From Chitinivorax sp. B (lineage in GTDB: Bacteria; Pseudomonadota; Gammaproteobacteria; Burkholderiales; SCOH01): a stretch of 64,000 bases of DNA. Numbering within the stretch: the stretch's first letter is position 1; every line of letters begins with the position of its first letter. Under the pieces are notes generated by a model. The model was not told where the DNA came from. It searched no databases and saw only the letters and a program-made list of their open reading frames with translations. Below, piece after piece: positions 3,132-49,819 of the stretch. The stretch covers positions 124,001-188,000 of the forward strand of contig NZ_SCOH01000004.1 in the NCBI RefSeq assembly GCF_005503445.1, written 5' to 3'. Made by a program: the position numbers and the translations under genes.

Positions 3132-3818
3132 ATGGTGGCGCCACCTCATTCCAACAAACCGTCGACTCCGCCCGTCGCCGGCAAGGGGGCGTGGCGCCCC
3201 TCATTTGGCTATCTGGCAATTGCATTGGTACTTGCTTTATGTGGCCTGGGTTACTGGTGGATGTCTGATTCATCGTCCTCTTCGTCTGAAACTGCATCGA
3301 CCACAGCCCCCAAGGCTTCTTCTACCCCCACAAGCAGTACTGGGGGTTGGCCTGCGTTGGCAACGGCTCCCTCCTCCCAGCTGGCAACCGATACACAGGA
3401 AATCCGGGTAAGCCGCGATGGGGATCGTGATCCAACGCCTGATTTGTCGAATTTCATACCGCAGGGCCAAACGCCAACCATGAACGAGGTCATCAACCGT
3501 TTGCACCAAGCGGGTATTCATACAGGCCTGGGTGCGTTCAATCCGCCGGGTACCCGCCCGCCCAAAGTGGGGCTGGCTGTGCCGGAAGGCTACCCGCTAC
3601 CCGATGGGTATGTCCGCCACCACCAAGCGACTGACGATGGCCAGCGTATCGAGCCGATTCTGATGTTTGCACCTGATCGCCAGATTCTGGACGCCAACAA
3701 CCGCCCCATTCAGGTACCGCCGGATCGTGTCGTCACACCAGAGCTGGCGCCTCCCGGCTTTCCGATACGGCGCATTGTGATTCCCCCACCCATCGATTCG
3801 GGGCGAACCGGGCGCTGA
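3132..3818 (+). CDS. membrane-anchored periplasmic protein of unknown function
   Basis: 228 residues. A short cytoplasmic N-terminus is followed by one membrane segment (about residues 25-46, LAIALVLALCGLGYWWM), then a Ser/Thr-rich linker (about 47-80) and a Pro-rich periplasmic part. The C-terminal part contains TPDLSNFIPQGQTPTMNEV and several PPG/PPPI turns. I recognise no family. It lies between the SGNH hydrolase and the Lnt-like gene with short gaps (22 and 36 bases), so all three are probably co-transcribed. It may be a scaffold or substrate-presenting partner for one of its neighbours; that is inference only. Confidence 0.65.
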   Translation: MVAPPHSNKPSTPPVAGKGAWRPSFGYLAIALVLALCGLGYWWMSDSSSSSSETASTTAPKASSTPTSSTGGWPALATAPSSQLATDTQEIRVSRDGDRDPTPDLSNFIPQGQTPTMNEVINRLHQAGIHTGLGAFNPPGTRPPKVGLAVPEGYPLPDGYVRHHQATDDGQRIEPILMFAPDRQILDANNRPIQVPPDRVVTPELAPPGFPIRRIVIPPPIDSGRTGR

Positions 3819-46849: not shown

Positions 46850-47416
46850 ATGCGCACAATTTTAGATACCCCAGTGCTGGGCACCGCTTTTGGCGCAATG
46901 GCCAGGACGATCTTGAAGCTGACCGGTTGGCACCTGGAAGGCCAGGTGCCCGTCACGCCCAAATATGTACTGATCGTCGCTCCACATACCAGCAATTGGG
47001 ATTTTGTCGTCGGCTTGCTGTTTGTGATGGCCTTTCGCATCCAGGTGCGATGGATGGGTAAGCACACATTATTCCGTTTTCCGTTTGGCGGCTTGATGCG
47101 ATGGCTGGGGGGCATTCCAGTCAACCGCAGCCAACCTGGGCAATTGGTACGACGCACGGTCCATGCGTTCAGTGAACACGACCACTTTGCCATTGCCCTG
47201 GCACCTGAAGGTACTCGCAAGCATGTTGCGCAGTGGAAAACTGGTTTCTACTGGATCGCCCATCAAGCCAAGGTGCCGATTGTACCCGCCTATATTGATT
47301 TCCCTCGCAAGACGGCCGGTATCTCTCCCCCCTTTGAGCCCACAGGCAATGTTGATGTTGACCTGCCGAAATTGCAGGCGGTCTATGCCAATGTGCATGG
47401 CAAACGTGCCCGCTGA
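46850..47416 (+). CDS. lysophospholipid/1-acylglycerol-3-phosphate acyltransferase family protein
   Basis: 188 residues from ATG 46850; the frame extends back into the terminator. PlsC-like motifs: HTSNWDF (H-x4-D) near residue 47, then GGIPVNRS and APEGTRKH. It acylates a glycerolipid or related acceptor at the inner membrane face. The C-terminus is shorter than in housekeeping PlsC, similar to the YihG/ybaB-side family. Its terminator is not obvious; the RNA-repair promoter begins 25 bases after its stop. Confidence 0.87.
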   Translation: MRTILDTPVLGTAFGAMARTILKLTGWHLEGQVPVTPKYVLIVAPHTSNWDFVVGLLFVMAFRIQVRWMGKHTLFRFPFGGLMRWLGGIPVNRSQPGQLVRRTVHAFSEHDHFAIALAPEGTRKHVAQWKTGFYWIAHQAKVPIVPAYIDFPRKTAGISPPFEPTGNVDVDLPKLQAVYANVHGKRAR

Positions 47417-47441
47417 TTTTTAGCTGCCATCATTCATGTCG

Positions 47442-47471
47442 TTGACATGGTCTGTGCAAGCTGATTAAACT
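47442..47471 (+). promoter_or_regulatory. sigma70-like promoter of the RNA-repair operon
   Basis: TTGACA (perfect, 47442-47447), an 18-base spacer and TAAACT (47466-47471). Transcription from about 47478 would give a 237-base leader before the RNA ligase. Confidence 0.65.
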
Positions 47472-47502
47472 GCCCAGCCTGTTTTCAACTGAAATATCTC
47501 TC

Positions 47503-47714
47503 AAAGGAGACCCAAAGTGCCCCGTATCGTCGCCATCCCCCATTGATAGCCGACGACACCTGCATTGCAGAGTCGTATGGCGCGCTCGCGCATCTCTGTC
47601 ATGCAGTGGACACTTTGAACATTCAAGCTCCATTTCACGCATCCGCATTCGAACCAGCCCGCGCGGGCGCGCCGTTGTCGTCGGCTCCGAATTTATTCAA
47701 CTCGGAGCAAGACC
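47503..47714 (+). promoter_or_regulatory. structured leader of the RNA ligase gene with mutually exclusive pairings
   Basis: An 11-bp stem joins AGCCGACGACA (47548-47558) to TGTCGTCGGCT (47676-47686). Directly inside is a 47-base hairpin (47560-47606): CTGCAT/ATGCAG, CAGAG/CTCTG and ATG(G)CGC/GCGCAT. A further palindrome, GCCCGCGCGGGC, lies at 47657-47668. Downstream, GCTCCGA (47684-47690) pairs with TCGGAGC (47702-47708), masking the ligase ribosome binding site GGAG (47704-47707). The first three bases of this hairpin are also the last three of the 11-bp stem, so both cannot form fully at once. A leader ORF ends just before the stem. Confidence 0.6.
47517..47546 (+). CDS. nine-codon leader ORF
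   Basis: GTG CCC CGT ATC GTC GCC ATC CCC CAT TGA, giving MPRIVAIPH. AAAGGAG (47503-47509) is seven bases upstream, one of the strongest ribosome binding sites in the window. The stop ends one base before the 5' arm of the 11-bp leader stem, so a ribosome here would cover that arm. It may be a regulatory leader peptide or the stump of a lost gene; a 63-codon open frame follows in another phase without its own start. Confidence 0.4.
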   Translation: MPRIVAIPH

Positions 47715-48602
47715 ATGAAACCCAATTCTCTTGAAATCATCAACCTTGAGCTATTGAAATACCCCCGCACCACCCATCTGGAAGGCTCGCGCCTGCAGGC
47801 CGGTGACGAAGGCGACAACCAACTGCCTTATACCAGTCTGGCCGGTCGCTATATCGTGGTAGAGGAAAAACTAGATGGCGGTAACGCCGGACTGAGCTTC
47901 TCCGCCGGCGGCGAATTGCTGCTGCAAAGTCGGGGACATTATTTGACTGGAGGAGGCCGGGAACGCCAGTTCAATCTGTACAAGCAATGGGCAGTGGCCC
48001 ATGAGCACCGACTGATCAATGTACTGGATGACCGCTATGTGATGTTTGGTGAGTGGATGCACAAAAAGCACGCCATGTTCTACAACACGTTGCCGCATTA
48101 CTTTCTGGAATTCGATATCTGGGACCGGGCGAAGCAGTGCTTCCTGTCCACACCCGCGCGCCAGCAGTTGCTGTATGGCTTACCAGTACTGGCGGTACCT
48201 GTACTCTATGCTGGTATTGCACCGCACAAGTTGTCTGACCTGATCGCGTTGTTGCAGCCATCCTTGGCTCGACACACAGGCTGGCAGCAGGTATTCGAAC
48301 AGCAAGTACAACGAGAACGACTTGAACTGGCCAAAGCGTGGCAGCAGACAGATCGTTCTGAACTGGCCGAAGGCCTGTACATCAAAGTGGAAGAAGCTGG
48401 TCAGACGGTTGCCCGTTACAAATGGGTACGGCCGGATTTTGTTCAGGCGATTCTGGAATCTGCTGTGCACCATGCAGAACAACCCTTCATCGCCAACCAG
48501 CTGGCCACAGGAGTGGATCTGTTTGCCCCCAGCCTGACCCACGCTTGGCCCACCACCAGCCAGGTTACGATACCTGTCAAACCAGCCGGGAGGACATCAT
48601 GA
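47715..48602 (+). CDS. ATP-dependent RNA ligase
   Basis: 295 residues. Nucleotidyltransferase motifs in order: motif I EKLDGGN with adenylated Lys52, motif III YVMFGEWM, motif IV AEGLYIKVEEAG and motif V ARYKWVR. The Lys-x-Asp-Gly-Gly form is that of RNA ligases. It seals 3'-OH/5'-phosphate RNA (or DNA) ends. The start is ATG with GGAG seven bases upstream, inside a hairpin. It overlaps the HD-Pnk gene by four bases. Together they would heal and seal broken RNA. The natural substrate is unknown; tRNAs cut by toxins are the usual idea. Confidence 0.9.
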   Translation: MKPNSLEIINLELLKYPRTTHLEGSRLQAGDEGDNQLPYTSLAGRYIVVEEKLDGGNAGLSFSAGGELLLQSRGHYLTGGGRERQFNLYKQWAVAHEHRLINVLDDRYVMFGEWMHKKHAMFYNTLPHYFLEFDIWDRAKQCFLSTPARQQLLYGLPVLAVPVLYAGIAPHKLSDLIALLQPSLARHTGWQQVFEQQVQRERLELAKAWQQTDRSELAEGLYIKVEEAGQTVARYKWVRPDFVQAILESAVHHAEQPFIANQLATGVDLFAPSLTHAWPTTSQVTIPVKPAGRTS

Positions 48603-49819
48603 GTCACGATTTGTCCGCCATGTTGACCGATGCGCACTTGGCCAGTCTGAAAACACCGCAACGATTGATCTGTGCACCCTATTCCATACTGCAACAGTTG
48701 GTACCAACCGGCGTCAGCTCGCCAGACTGGCCTCAGCTGCTGGAAGTCATTCCGCCACTGAAGCGGCTGGCGACGACGCCGCAAGACCCGCGTTACCACG
48801 CGGAAGGGAACGTATGGACGCATACGCAAATGGTACTGGAAGCCTTGTTGGCTCATGCCGAATATCAATCGACCACGCCGGAACGGCAATTTGTATTGTT
48901 CTATGCCGCCCTGCTACATGATGTCGCCAAACCGGCCACCACCACTGTGGACCGGCTCACCGGTGCCATTGGTCAGCCAGGCCACTCCAGCCGTGGTGCA
49001 GTCGATACCCGCATCCTGCTCTGGCGCAGCGGAGTACCCTTTGCGTTGCGGGAAGCCATCTGCCGATTGATTGCCGTGCACCAGATTCCGTTTTACGCAC
49101 TAAAGGGAAGCCGCAGCGGACACTCGCCGGAGTTTCTGGTGCGCAAGTTATCCCACGAATTGATGATCAGCGAACTGGCTTTACTGGCTGAAGCCGACAT
49201 GCGTGGCCGCATCTGCACGGATCAAGCGGAGACGCTGGTCAATATCGAACTGTTCCGGGAACTGGCCCGTGAGGAACAATGCTACGACCAACCACGTGCC
49301 TTTGCCGATGTCTGGACACGTCAACGTTACTTCAACGGTGGCGACGTACACCCCGATTATGTGTACCACCGTGATGCGGGTTCACAAGTTATCGTGCTGT
49401 GTGGCCTGCCGGCTTCCGGCAAGGATAGTTGGGTACGCAAGTATTACCCGGATTTGCCAGTCGTCAGCTTCGATGACGCGCGTACCTCGCTGGGTCTCAA
49501 GCACGGAGAAAACGACGGCCAGGCCGCACATTGGGCTACCGATCTGGCCAAAACACACCTGCGGACACAACGACCCTTTGTCTGGAACGCCACACACCTG
49601 TCCCGGCAAATGCGTGCCAAGACGCTGGATTTGCTGTTTGCCTATGGGGCGACCGTCAAGGTGGTGTATCTGGAACAACCACCGGCCGTGCTGTTCGAGC
49701 GCAATCGCAAACGCGATACCAGCTTGTCCAACGCTGGGATTGAACGGATGCTGTACCGCTGGGAAGTCGTGCTGCCGACCGAGGCGCATGAGGTGCGGTA
49801 CGATGTAAGCAGCATGTAA
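48599..49819 (+). CDS. HD-Pnk: HD phosphohydrolase fused to 5'-OH polynucleotide kinase
   Basis: 406 residues from ATG 48599 (GGGAGG upstream), overlapping the ligase stop. The N-terminal HD domain has WTHTQMVLEAL and LLHDVAKP with His107-Asp108. The C-terminal P-loop kinase has CGLPASGKDSW (Gly269 to Lys275) and a lid-like ERNRKRDTSL. The known member, from Runella, removes 2',3' phosphates and phosphorylates 5'-OH ends. With the neighbouring ligase this gives a complete end-healing and sealing pathway. The catalytic residues look intact. Not part of the T4-type Pnkp, whose domain order is different. Confidence 0.9.
   Translation: MSHDLSAMLTDAHLASLKTPQRLICAPYSILQQLVPTGVSSPDWPQLLEVIPPLKRLATTPQDPRYHAEGNVWTHTQMVLEALLAHAEYQSTTPERQFVLFYAALLHDVAKPATTTVDRLTGAIGQPGHSSRGAVDTRILLWRSGVPFALREAICRLIAVHQIPFYALKGSRSGHSPEFLVRKLSHELMISELALLAEADMRGRICTDQAETLVNIELFRELAREEQCYDQPRAFADVWTRQRYFNGGDVHPDYVYHRDAGSQVIVLCGLPASGKDSWVRKYYPDLPVVSFDDARTSLGLKHGENDGQAAHWATDLAKTHLRTQRPFVWNATHLSRQMRAKTLDLLFAYGATVKVVYLEQPPAVLFERNRKRDTSLSNAGIERMLYRWEVVLPTEAHEVRYDVSSM

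Follow-up and report, generated by a model that had tools for sequence, protein, structure and literature searches.

The trp and his leaders contain four segments whose 1:2, 2:3 and 3:4 pairings are read by the ribosome on the leader. In the translational attenuation of ermC and ermB, it is the position of the ribosome on a short leader ORF that decides, by way of alternative hairpins and the Shine-Dalgarno (SD) sequence (PMC5118997). Inducing signals of bacterial RNA-repair systems are rarely known, and the sensing of tRNA fragments by RtcR is the worked example that we found. The rtcBA RNA-repair operons are induced by damage to the translation apparatus, and tRNA 5' halves ending in cyclic phosphate bind RtcR, a transcriptional activator acting on tRNA fragments (PMC7790460). 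The Deinococcus protein DRB0098 combines HD phosphatase-family and kinase domains and is encoded in an operon, studied as DNA repair, with a ligase-like nucleotidyltransferase and a third, macro-like protein (PMC1997131).

Here we analyse the leader of an RNA ligase operon in a stretch of 64,000 nucleotides from Chitinivorax sp. B (contig NZ_SCOH01000004.1, positions 124,001 to 188,000), which we call the window. We consider it fairly probable that this leader controls an RNA heal-and-seal operon by translational attenuation, reporting whether ribosomes finish a very short ORF. Its four-segment logic resembles that of the trp and his attenuators, whereas the window leader has neither an intrinsic terminator nor a regulatory codon run and its predicted output is translation initiation. 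Features in common with the erm attenuators are a short leader ORF preceded by an SD, hairpins that can form alternatively, masking of the downstream SD and, in our folding model, a decisive ribosome position. It departs from erm in having an RNA-repair operon as its target, in the drift of its peptide sequence and in showing no evident drug or arrest peptide; moreover, any hold on codons 1–6 is predicted to give the open state, and the competing arms stand a long way (117 nt) from each other. As with RtcR and rtcBA, an RNA-repair operon would be induced by translation damage, but the sensor would consist of the mRNA leader together with the ribosome, and repair would fall to a PF09414 ligase and an HD-kinase. 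The adjacency of a ligase gene and a gene for an HD and polynucleotide kinase protein is reminiscent of DRB0098, although the part of that report considered here describes no leader ORF for the Deinococcus operon (PMC1997131).

RNA ligase and HD-kinase gene pair

Both domains of the operon, PF09414 RNA ligase and HD-kinase, are detected by Pfam in adjacent genes (Table 1), and the start ATG of the HD-kinase gene overlaps the ligase stop. The HD-kinase adjoins the ligase in all relatives with at least 40% ligase identity. Judged from their domains, the two proteins resemble a pair that heals and seals RNA ends, with the HD-kinase as the presumed end-healing partner of the ligase.

A protein search with the ligase returned relatives at 56–73% identity in beta- and gammaproteobacteria, on chromosomes and on plasmids. 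A ligase match was absent from the one same-genus and the three same-family genomes sampled, and the distribution of the operon in this sample is patchy. No relative of the ligase was present in IMG/VR, relatives in phages are only remote, and E. coli gave no DNA match. Two Pseudomonas aeruginosa plasmids (L017, L022) carry the operon together with the leader, and IS21 elements flank one copy, which suggests mobility of the operon. On a Variovorax megaplasmid (L016), ligase and kinase are separated by an extra hypothetical gene (3442–3786), and a leader ORF is not apparent.

Table 1. Features of the leader and operon (window coordinates) and leader peptides at related loci.
Feature	Position	Strand	Evidence and remarks
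Predicted sigma-70-like promoter, TTGACA-18-TAAACT	47442..47471	+	10/12 consensus matches; 0.4 expected in shuffles
SD of leader ORF, AAAGGAG	about 47503..47509	+	Sequence; perfect; 7 nt before GTG
Leader ORF, 9 codons	47517..47546	+	GTG 47517-47519 to TGA 47544-47546; codons ~3-7 = segment 1
Segment 2, 5' arm, AGCCGACGACA	47548..47558	+	Folding, pairing
Interior domain between arms	47559..47675	+	Structured; variable outside four betaproteobacterial loci
Segment 3, 3' arm, TGTCGTCGGCT	47676..47686	+	Predicted to pair with segment 2 or segment 4
Segment 4 and its hairpin	47684..47717	+	GCTCCGA...TCGGAGC, predicted to mask ligase SD GGAG 47704-47707
ATP-dependent RNA ligase (PF09414)	47715..48602	+	Pfam E=2.5e-33; ATG at 47715
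HD domain and P-loop polynucleotide kinase	48599..49819	+	PF13671 and PF01966; Pnkp and CCA-enzyme HD similarity
Leader peptide, L013 (Uliginosibacterium)			MPRTFAITL
Leader peptide, L021			MPRTFAITA
Leader peptide, L003/L004			MPRTSNIIA
Leader peptide, L017/L022 (Pseudomonas aeruginosa plasmids)			MPCTSQLA
Leader peptide, L014/L015 (Frischella and Gilliamella)			MPVTYFLS
Leader peptide, L005			MPRRTASC
Leader peptide, L023/L026			MSRRTRSC
Leader peptide, L028			MHRAIRSC
Leader peptide, L024			MFRSIAAL
Leader peptide, L025			MSCLIAAL
Leader peptide, L027			MSRCIAAL
Leader peptide, L029			MSRAIVTA
Leader peptide, L032			MPFTSAPL
Leader peptide, L033			MPCTSAPH

Architecture of the leader

The predicted promoter would start the transcript just upstream of the leader ORF, placing leader ORF and ligase on one transcript; no intrinsic terminator is found in 47380–47760. 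The leader ORF, which is presumably translated, reads GTG-CCC-CGT-ATC-GTC-GCC-ATC-CCC-CAT-TGA and encodes VPRIVAIPH, or MPRIVAIPH with the initial Val read as fMet. That this ORF ends one base before the 5' arm of an 11-bp stem, as the initial annotation had claimed, is confirmed base for base, the single intervening base being T47547. The two arms are perfectly complementary over 11 nt, and the pairing extends to 16 nt at 88%. The hairpin said to hide the ligase start is likewise recovered by folding, with 47684–47693 pairing to 47699–47708 over the ligase SD and outer GTC/GAC pairs extending it toward the ligase ATG. In the window without a ribosome, each base of the ligase SD is predicted to be unpaired with a probability of 0–0.05, and this predicted probability is low at the other loci too, single bases of L017/L022 excepted.

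In the arrangement that we propose, segment 1 would be the leader codons, segment 2 the arm after the leader stop, segment 3 the distal arm and segment 4 the ligase SD and start. Segment 3 would pair with either 2 or 4, and segment 2 also with 1 in the beta group. The notion that the closing stem and the SD hairpin barely compete, sharing 1–3 nt, was dropped: in the fold, pairing of the 3' arm reaches beyond the SD and includes bases of the start region.

Recurrence of the layout at 17 loci

A DNA similarity search with the leader among 60 relatives matched only the leader itself, and relatives were therefore sought through the ligase protein. At 17 distinct loci with a related ligase (the window included; the near-identical pairs L004 with L003 and L022 with L017 counted once), the same layout of mini-ORF, abutting 5' arm and distal 3' arm is present. 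The leader ORFs have 8 or 9 codons, a GTG or ATG start and a TGA or TAA stop, never TAG; the frame is kept while the length varies by whole codons and GTG/ATG and TGA/TAA are swapped. The leader stop lies at most 2 nt from the 5' arm at 17/17 loci, and in the L005/L023/L026/L028 group and in L029 the arm starts inside the stop codon. Nearly all relatives have a GGAG/GAGG-like SD ahead of the leader, the weakest being that of L017/L022 (GTGGTG), and a TARAMT-like box is located 45–52 nt before the leader start in 9 of the 17 loci. Conservation of the leader ORF, which had been named as a check on the initial annotation, is thereby found for position, SD and length at 17 loci but not for codons.

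Across these loci, the peptides (Table 1) have no common motif beyond a frequent Pro2/Arg3 and no visible arrest motif, and no codon beyond the start codon is invariant at the 17 loci; the loci thus yield no specific stalling signal. The idea of a conserved hungry codon for a single tRNA is rejected, since only the start codon is invariant. As the peptide changes almost freely, the conserved element would be the sites where ribosomes start and stop rather than the product. An in-frame fusion of leader and ligase was also considered; reading on from the leader stop, the frame stays open in L013 but not in L017, so that the open frame is coincidental.

Chance as the source of the layout is excluded by its recurrence at the 17 distinct loci. 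Viral contigs served as a negative control: among 30 places in them that match the arm sequence GCCGACGACACCTGCA exactly, none (0/30) is preceded by such an ORF.

Three close ligase relatives (L006, L016 and L030) have no recognisable leader. In L006, a transposase-like ORF recognised by eye (about 900–1140) lies directly upstream; the leader is missing while ligase and kinase are kept, and L006 is a natural case of leader loss. The interior is partly conserved in the window (47559–47675), L013, L021 and L003, with ACACCTGCA...GCAGAG...ATGGCG and GGCGC/GCGCC within the closing stem, and not elsewhere.

Co-variation of the pairings

For helix 2:3, 2 of 500 shuffles attain the observed covariation score, and sliding the register lowers it. 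Changes on both sides occur at 4 pairs of this helix (ten arm pairs, 12 distinct sequences), in an arm alignment that was made by eye for this count and leans toward the structure. We also applied an alignment-free swap test, in which the pairing of each segment with its own partner is compared with its pairing to the partners of other loci. At 14 loci, cognate pairing exceeds non-cognate pairing for 2:3 (p=0.0018) and for 3:4 (p=0.0002), with marginal support for 1:2 (p=0.058). With one representative for each of 11 groups, the median p for 2:3 is 0.006, and the 3' arm gives a median p of 0.0075 against the start-codon region and p=0.04 against the wider start; the anti-SD part alone is not significant in this set. 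Because the pairing 2:3 and the pairing of the 3' arm with the start both co-vary between loci, segment 3 appears, on comparative grounds, to be constrained to remain complementary to two competing partners, namely the segment 2 arm and the ligase start.

Folding model of ribosome position

For the model, a ribosome was represented by a run of about 30 bases kept unpaired. When it sits at codon 3 of the window leader, P(2:3) is 0.98 and P(3:4) is 0.25; at the last codon the two values become 0.00 and 1.00. The ribosome-free window RNA has P(1:2)=0.80 and P(3:4)=0.86. The claim that a late ribosome covers the 5' arm, frees the 3' arm and favours the ligase-start hairpin is thus supported by the window model. 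The opening cost of the ligase start, in energies that ignore tertiary structure of the interior and co-transcriptional kinetics, is 7.2–7.6 kcal/mol for codons 1–6, 12–13 for codons 7–9 and 8.5 without a ribosome. Shifting the ribosome from codon 3 to the last codon takes it from 7.3 to 12–13. This step was unchanged at footprints of +12 to +18 and at 25–37 C. Changing four bases of the 5' arm in silico abolishes the low-cost open state at every ribosome position.

We define the jump as the opening cost of the ligase start with a late ribosome minus that with an early one. It is +5.2 kcal/mol in the window, +5.6 in L003, +7.6 in L017, +6.1 in L014 and +5.0 in L015. Out of 100 shuffles, no more than one attains the jump at any of these loci, and one does so for the window. 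Since jump and footprint were settled on once the first loci were known, the shuffles are supportive rather than a pre-registered test. In real-sequence controls drawn from the window, a jump of at least +5 occurs at 1 of 220 random places and at 1 of 91 ORF starts, the latter being by its value the ligase start itself.

Besides these five strong cases, the modelled switch is moderate or weak at six of the 17 loci, near zero at three and absent or reversed at three. The weaker group comprises L026 (+3.4), L029 (+3.2), L023 (+2.4), L028 (+1.5), L021 (+2.3) and L013 (+1.2), the values of the last two each being met by 5 of 100 shuffles. The jump is near zero in L005 (0.0), L025 and L027 (both about +0.9), and absent or reversed in L033 (-1.0), L024 (-1.2) and L032 (-1.8). 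The geometry of translational attenuation that the initial annotation had read from the DNA therefore stands quantitatively in the window model, where ribosome position selects between mutually exclusive helices, but this selection is weak or absent in several relatives and falls to near zero or disappears in L005, L024, L025, L027, L032 and L033. L032 and L033, both lacking the modelled switch, carry CCCTCTTTTTT(T) after the 3' arm and then a long stretch up to the ligase ATG; these two may represent a transcriptional variant.

Proposed mechanism

The switching direction of the leader is taken from the folding model. A ribosome at the last two or three leader codons or at the stop would cover segment 2, leaving segment 3 to pair with 4 and close the ligase start. 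If the ribosome were instead held on codons 1–6, segment 2 would stay uncovered and 1:2, where present, would be broken, allowing 2:3 to form and the ligase start to become more open. Ribosomes that start but do not finish the leader would consequently raise expression of ligase and kinase. Damaged tRNAs or ribosomes would be the expected cause of such unfinished translation, and damage to translation is the presumed signal. Since the arms are so far apart in the window, a quickly terminating ribosome may leave before segment 3 is made, and repeated loading or slow termination on the leader must therefore be assumed.

The lack of a conserved codon or peptide argues against sensing of one starved tRNA or one drug and in favour of a general readout of initiation and early elongation. 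Such a readout would fit an operon that repairs broken tRNA or rRNA.

Alternative explanations

The leader could instead be a riboswitch or a protein-binding leader, with the interior as an aptamer or a binding site for ligase or kinase, a ligand stabilising 2:3 and the mini-ORF only keeping the RNA translated or stable. Such a leader would agree with the stability of the window leader region, which exceeds that of shuffles (z=-3.1), with the partial conservation of the interior in the four betaproteobacterial loci and with the resemblance of stem 2:3 to a riboswitch P1. However, interior length and sequence differ between groups (117 nt in the window; 115–291 nt from leader stop to ligase ATG across all loci) while ORF and arms persist, Rfam gives no covariance-model match up to E=5, and the pinning of the ORF stop to the arm is left unexplained. 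We regard this explanation as unlikely.

In termination-reinitiation, helix 2:3 would fold out the interior and bring the leader stop near the ligase SD, where a 30S subunit reinitiates; the leader would then activate rather than repress. Helix 2:3 indeed has the leader stop at its base, and in 11 of the 17 loci the end of the distal arm is 25–31 nt upstream of the ligase ATG. Yet a terminating ribosome would occlude the very 5' arm needed for the pairing, and this route does not explain why 3' arm and ligase start co-vary, which makes it quite improbable.

We think it very improbable that the main role of the leader ORF is to stabilise the mRNA or shield it from Rho, no specific switch being involved. 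For ermB, mRNA stability is reported to depend on the leader (PMC5118997), and a strong SD with a non-conserved peptide would suit such a role, but neither the precise spacing between stop and arm nor the two co-varying, mutually exclusive helices would be expected.

A remnant of a deleted gene, which the initial annotation had offered as its alternative, or a chance ORF is scarcely credible despite the mere 9 codons and the non-conserved peptide, because the same mini-ORF, SD and stop position are kept with diverged codons at 17 loci that are not near-identical copies, against none of the 30 chance matches.

Implications

Our literature search, in which subscription journals were thinly covered, returned no earlier account of leader-peptide or attenuation control of RNA ligases. 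Returning to the translational attenuator, we tentatively suggest that it may represent a new class of leader sensor, in which a codon-agnostic ORF of 8–9 codons gauges the completion of short translation and induces ligase and kinase when tRNA or ribosomes are broken. If true, RNA repair would be induced by failure of the process that it repairs, without a protein regulator, and damage would be coupled directly to repair by a leader through which the ribosome signals that it has failed. An annotation rule would follow, namely an 8–9-codon ORF ending at CCGACGAC upstream of such PF09414 ligases, and the leader would give a simple handle on when PF09414 ligase/HD-kinase operons are used.
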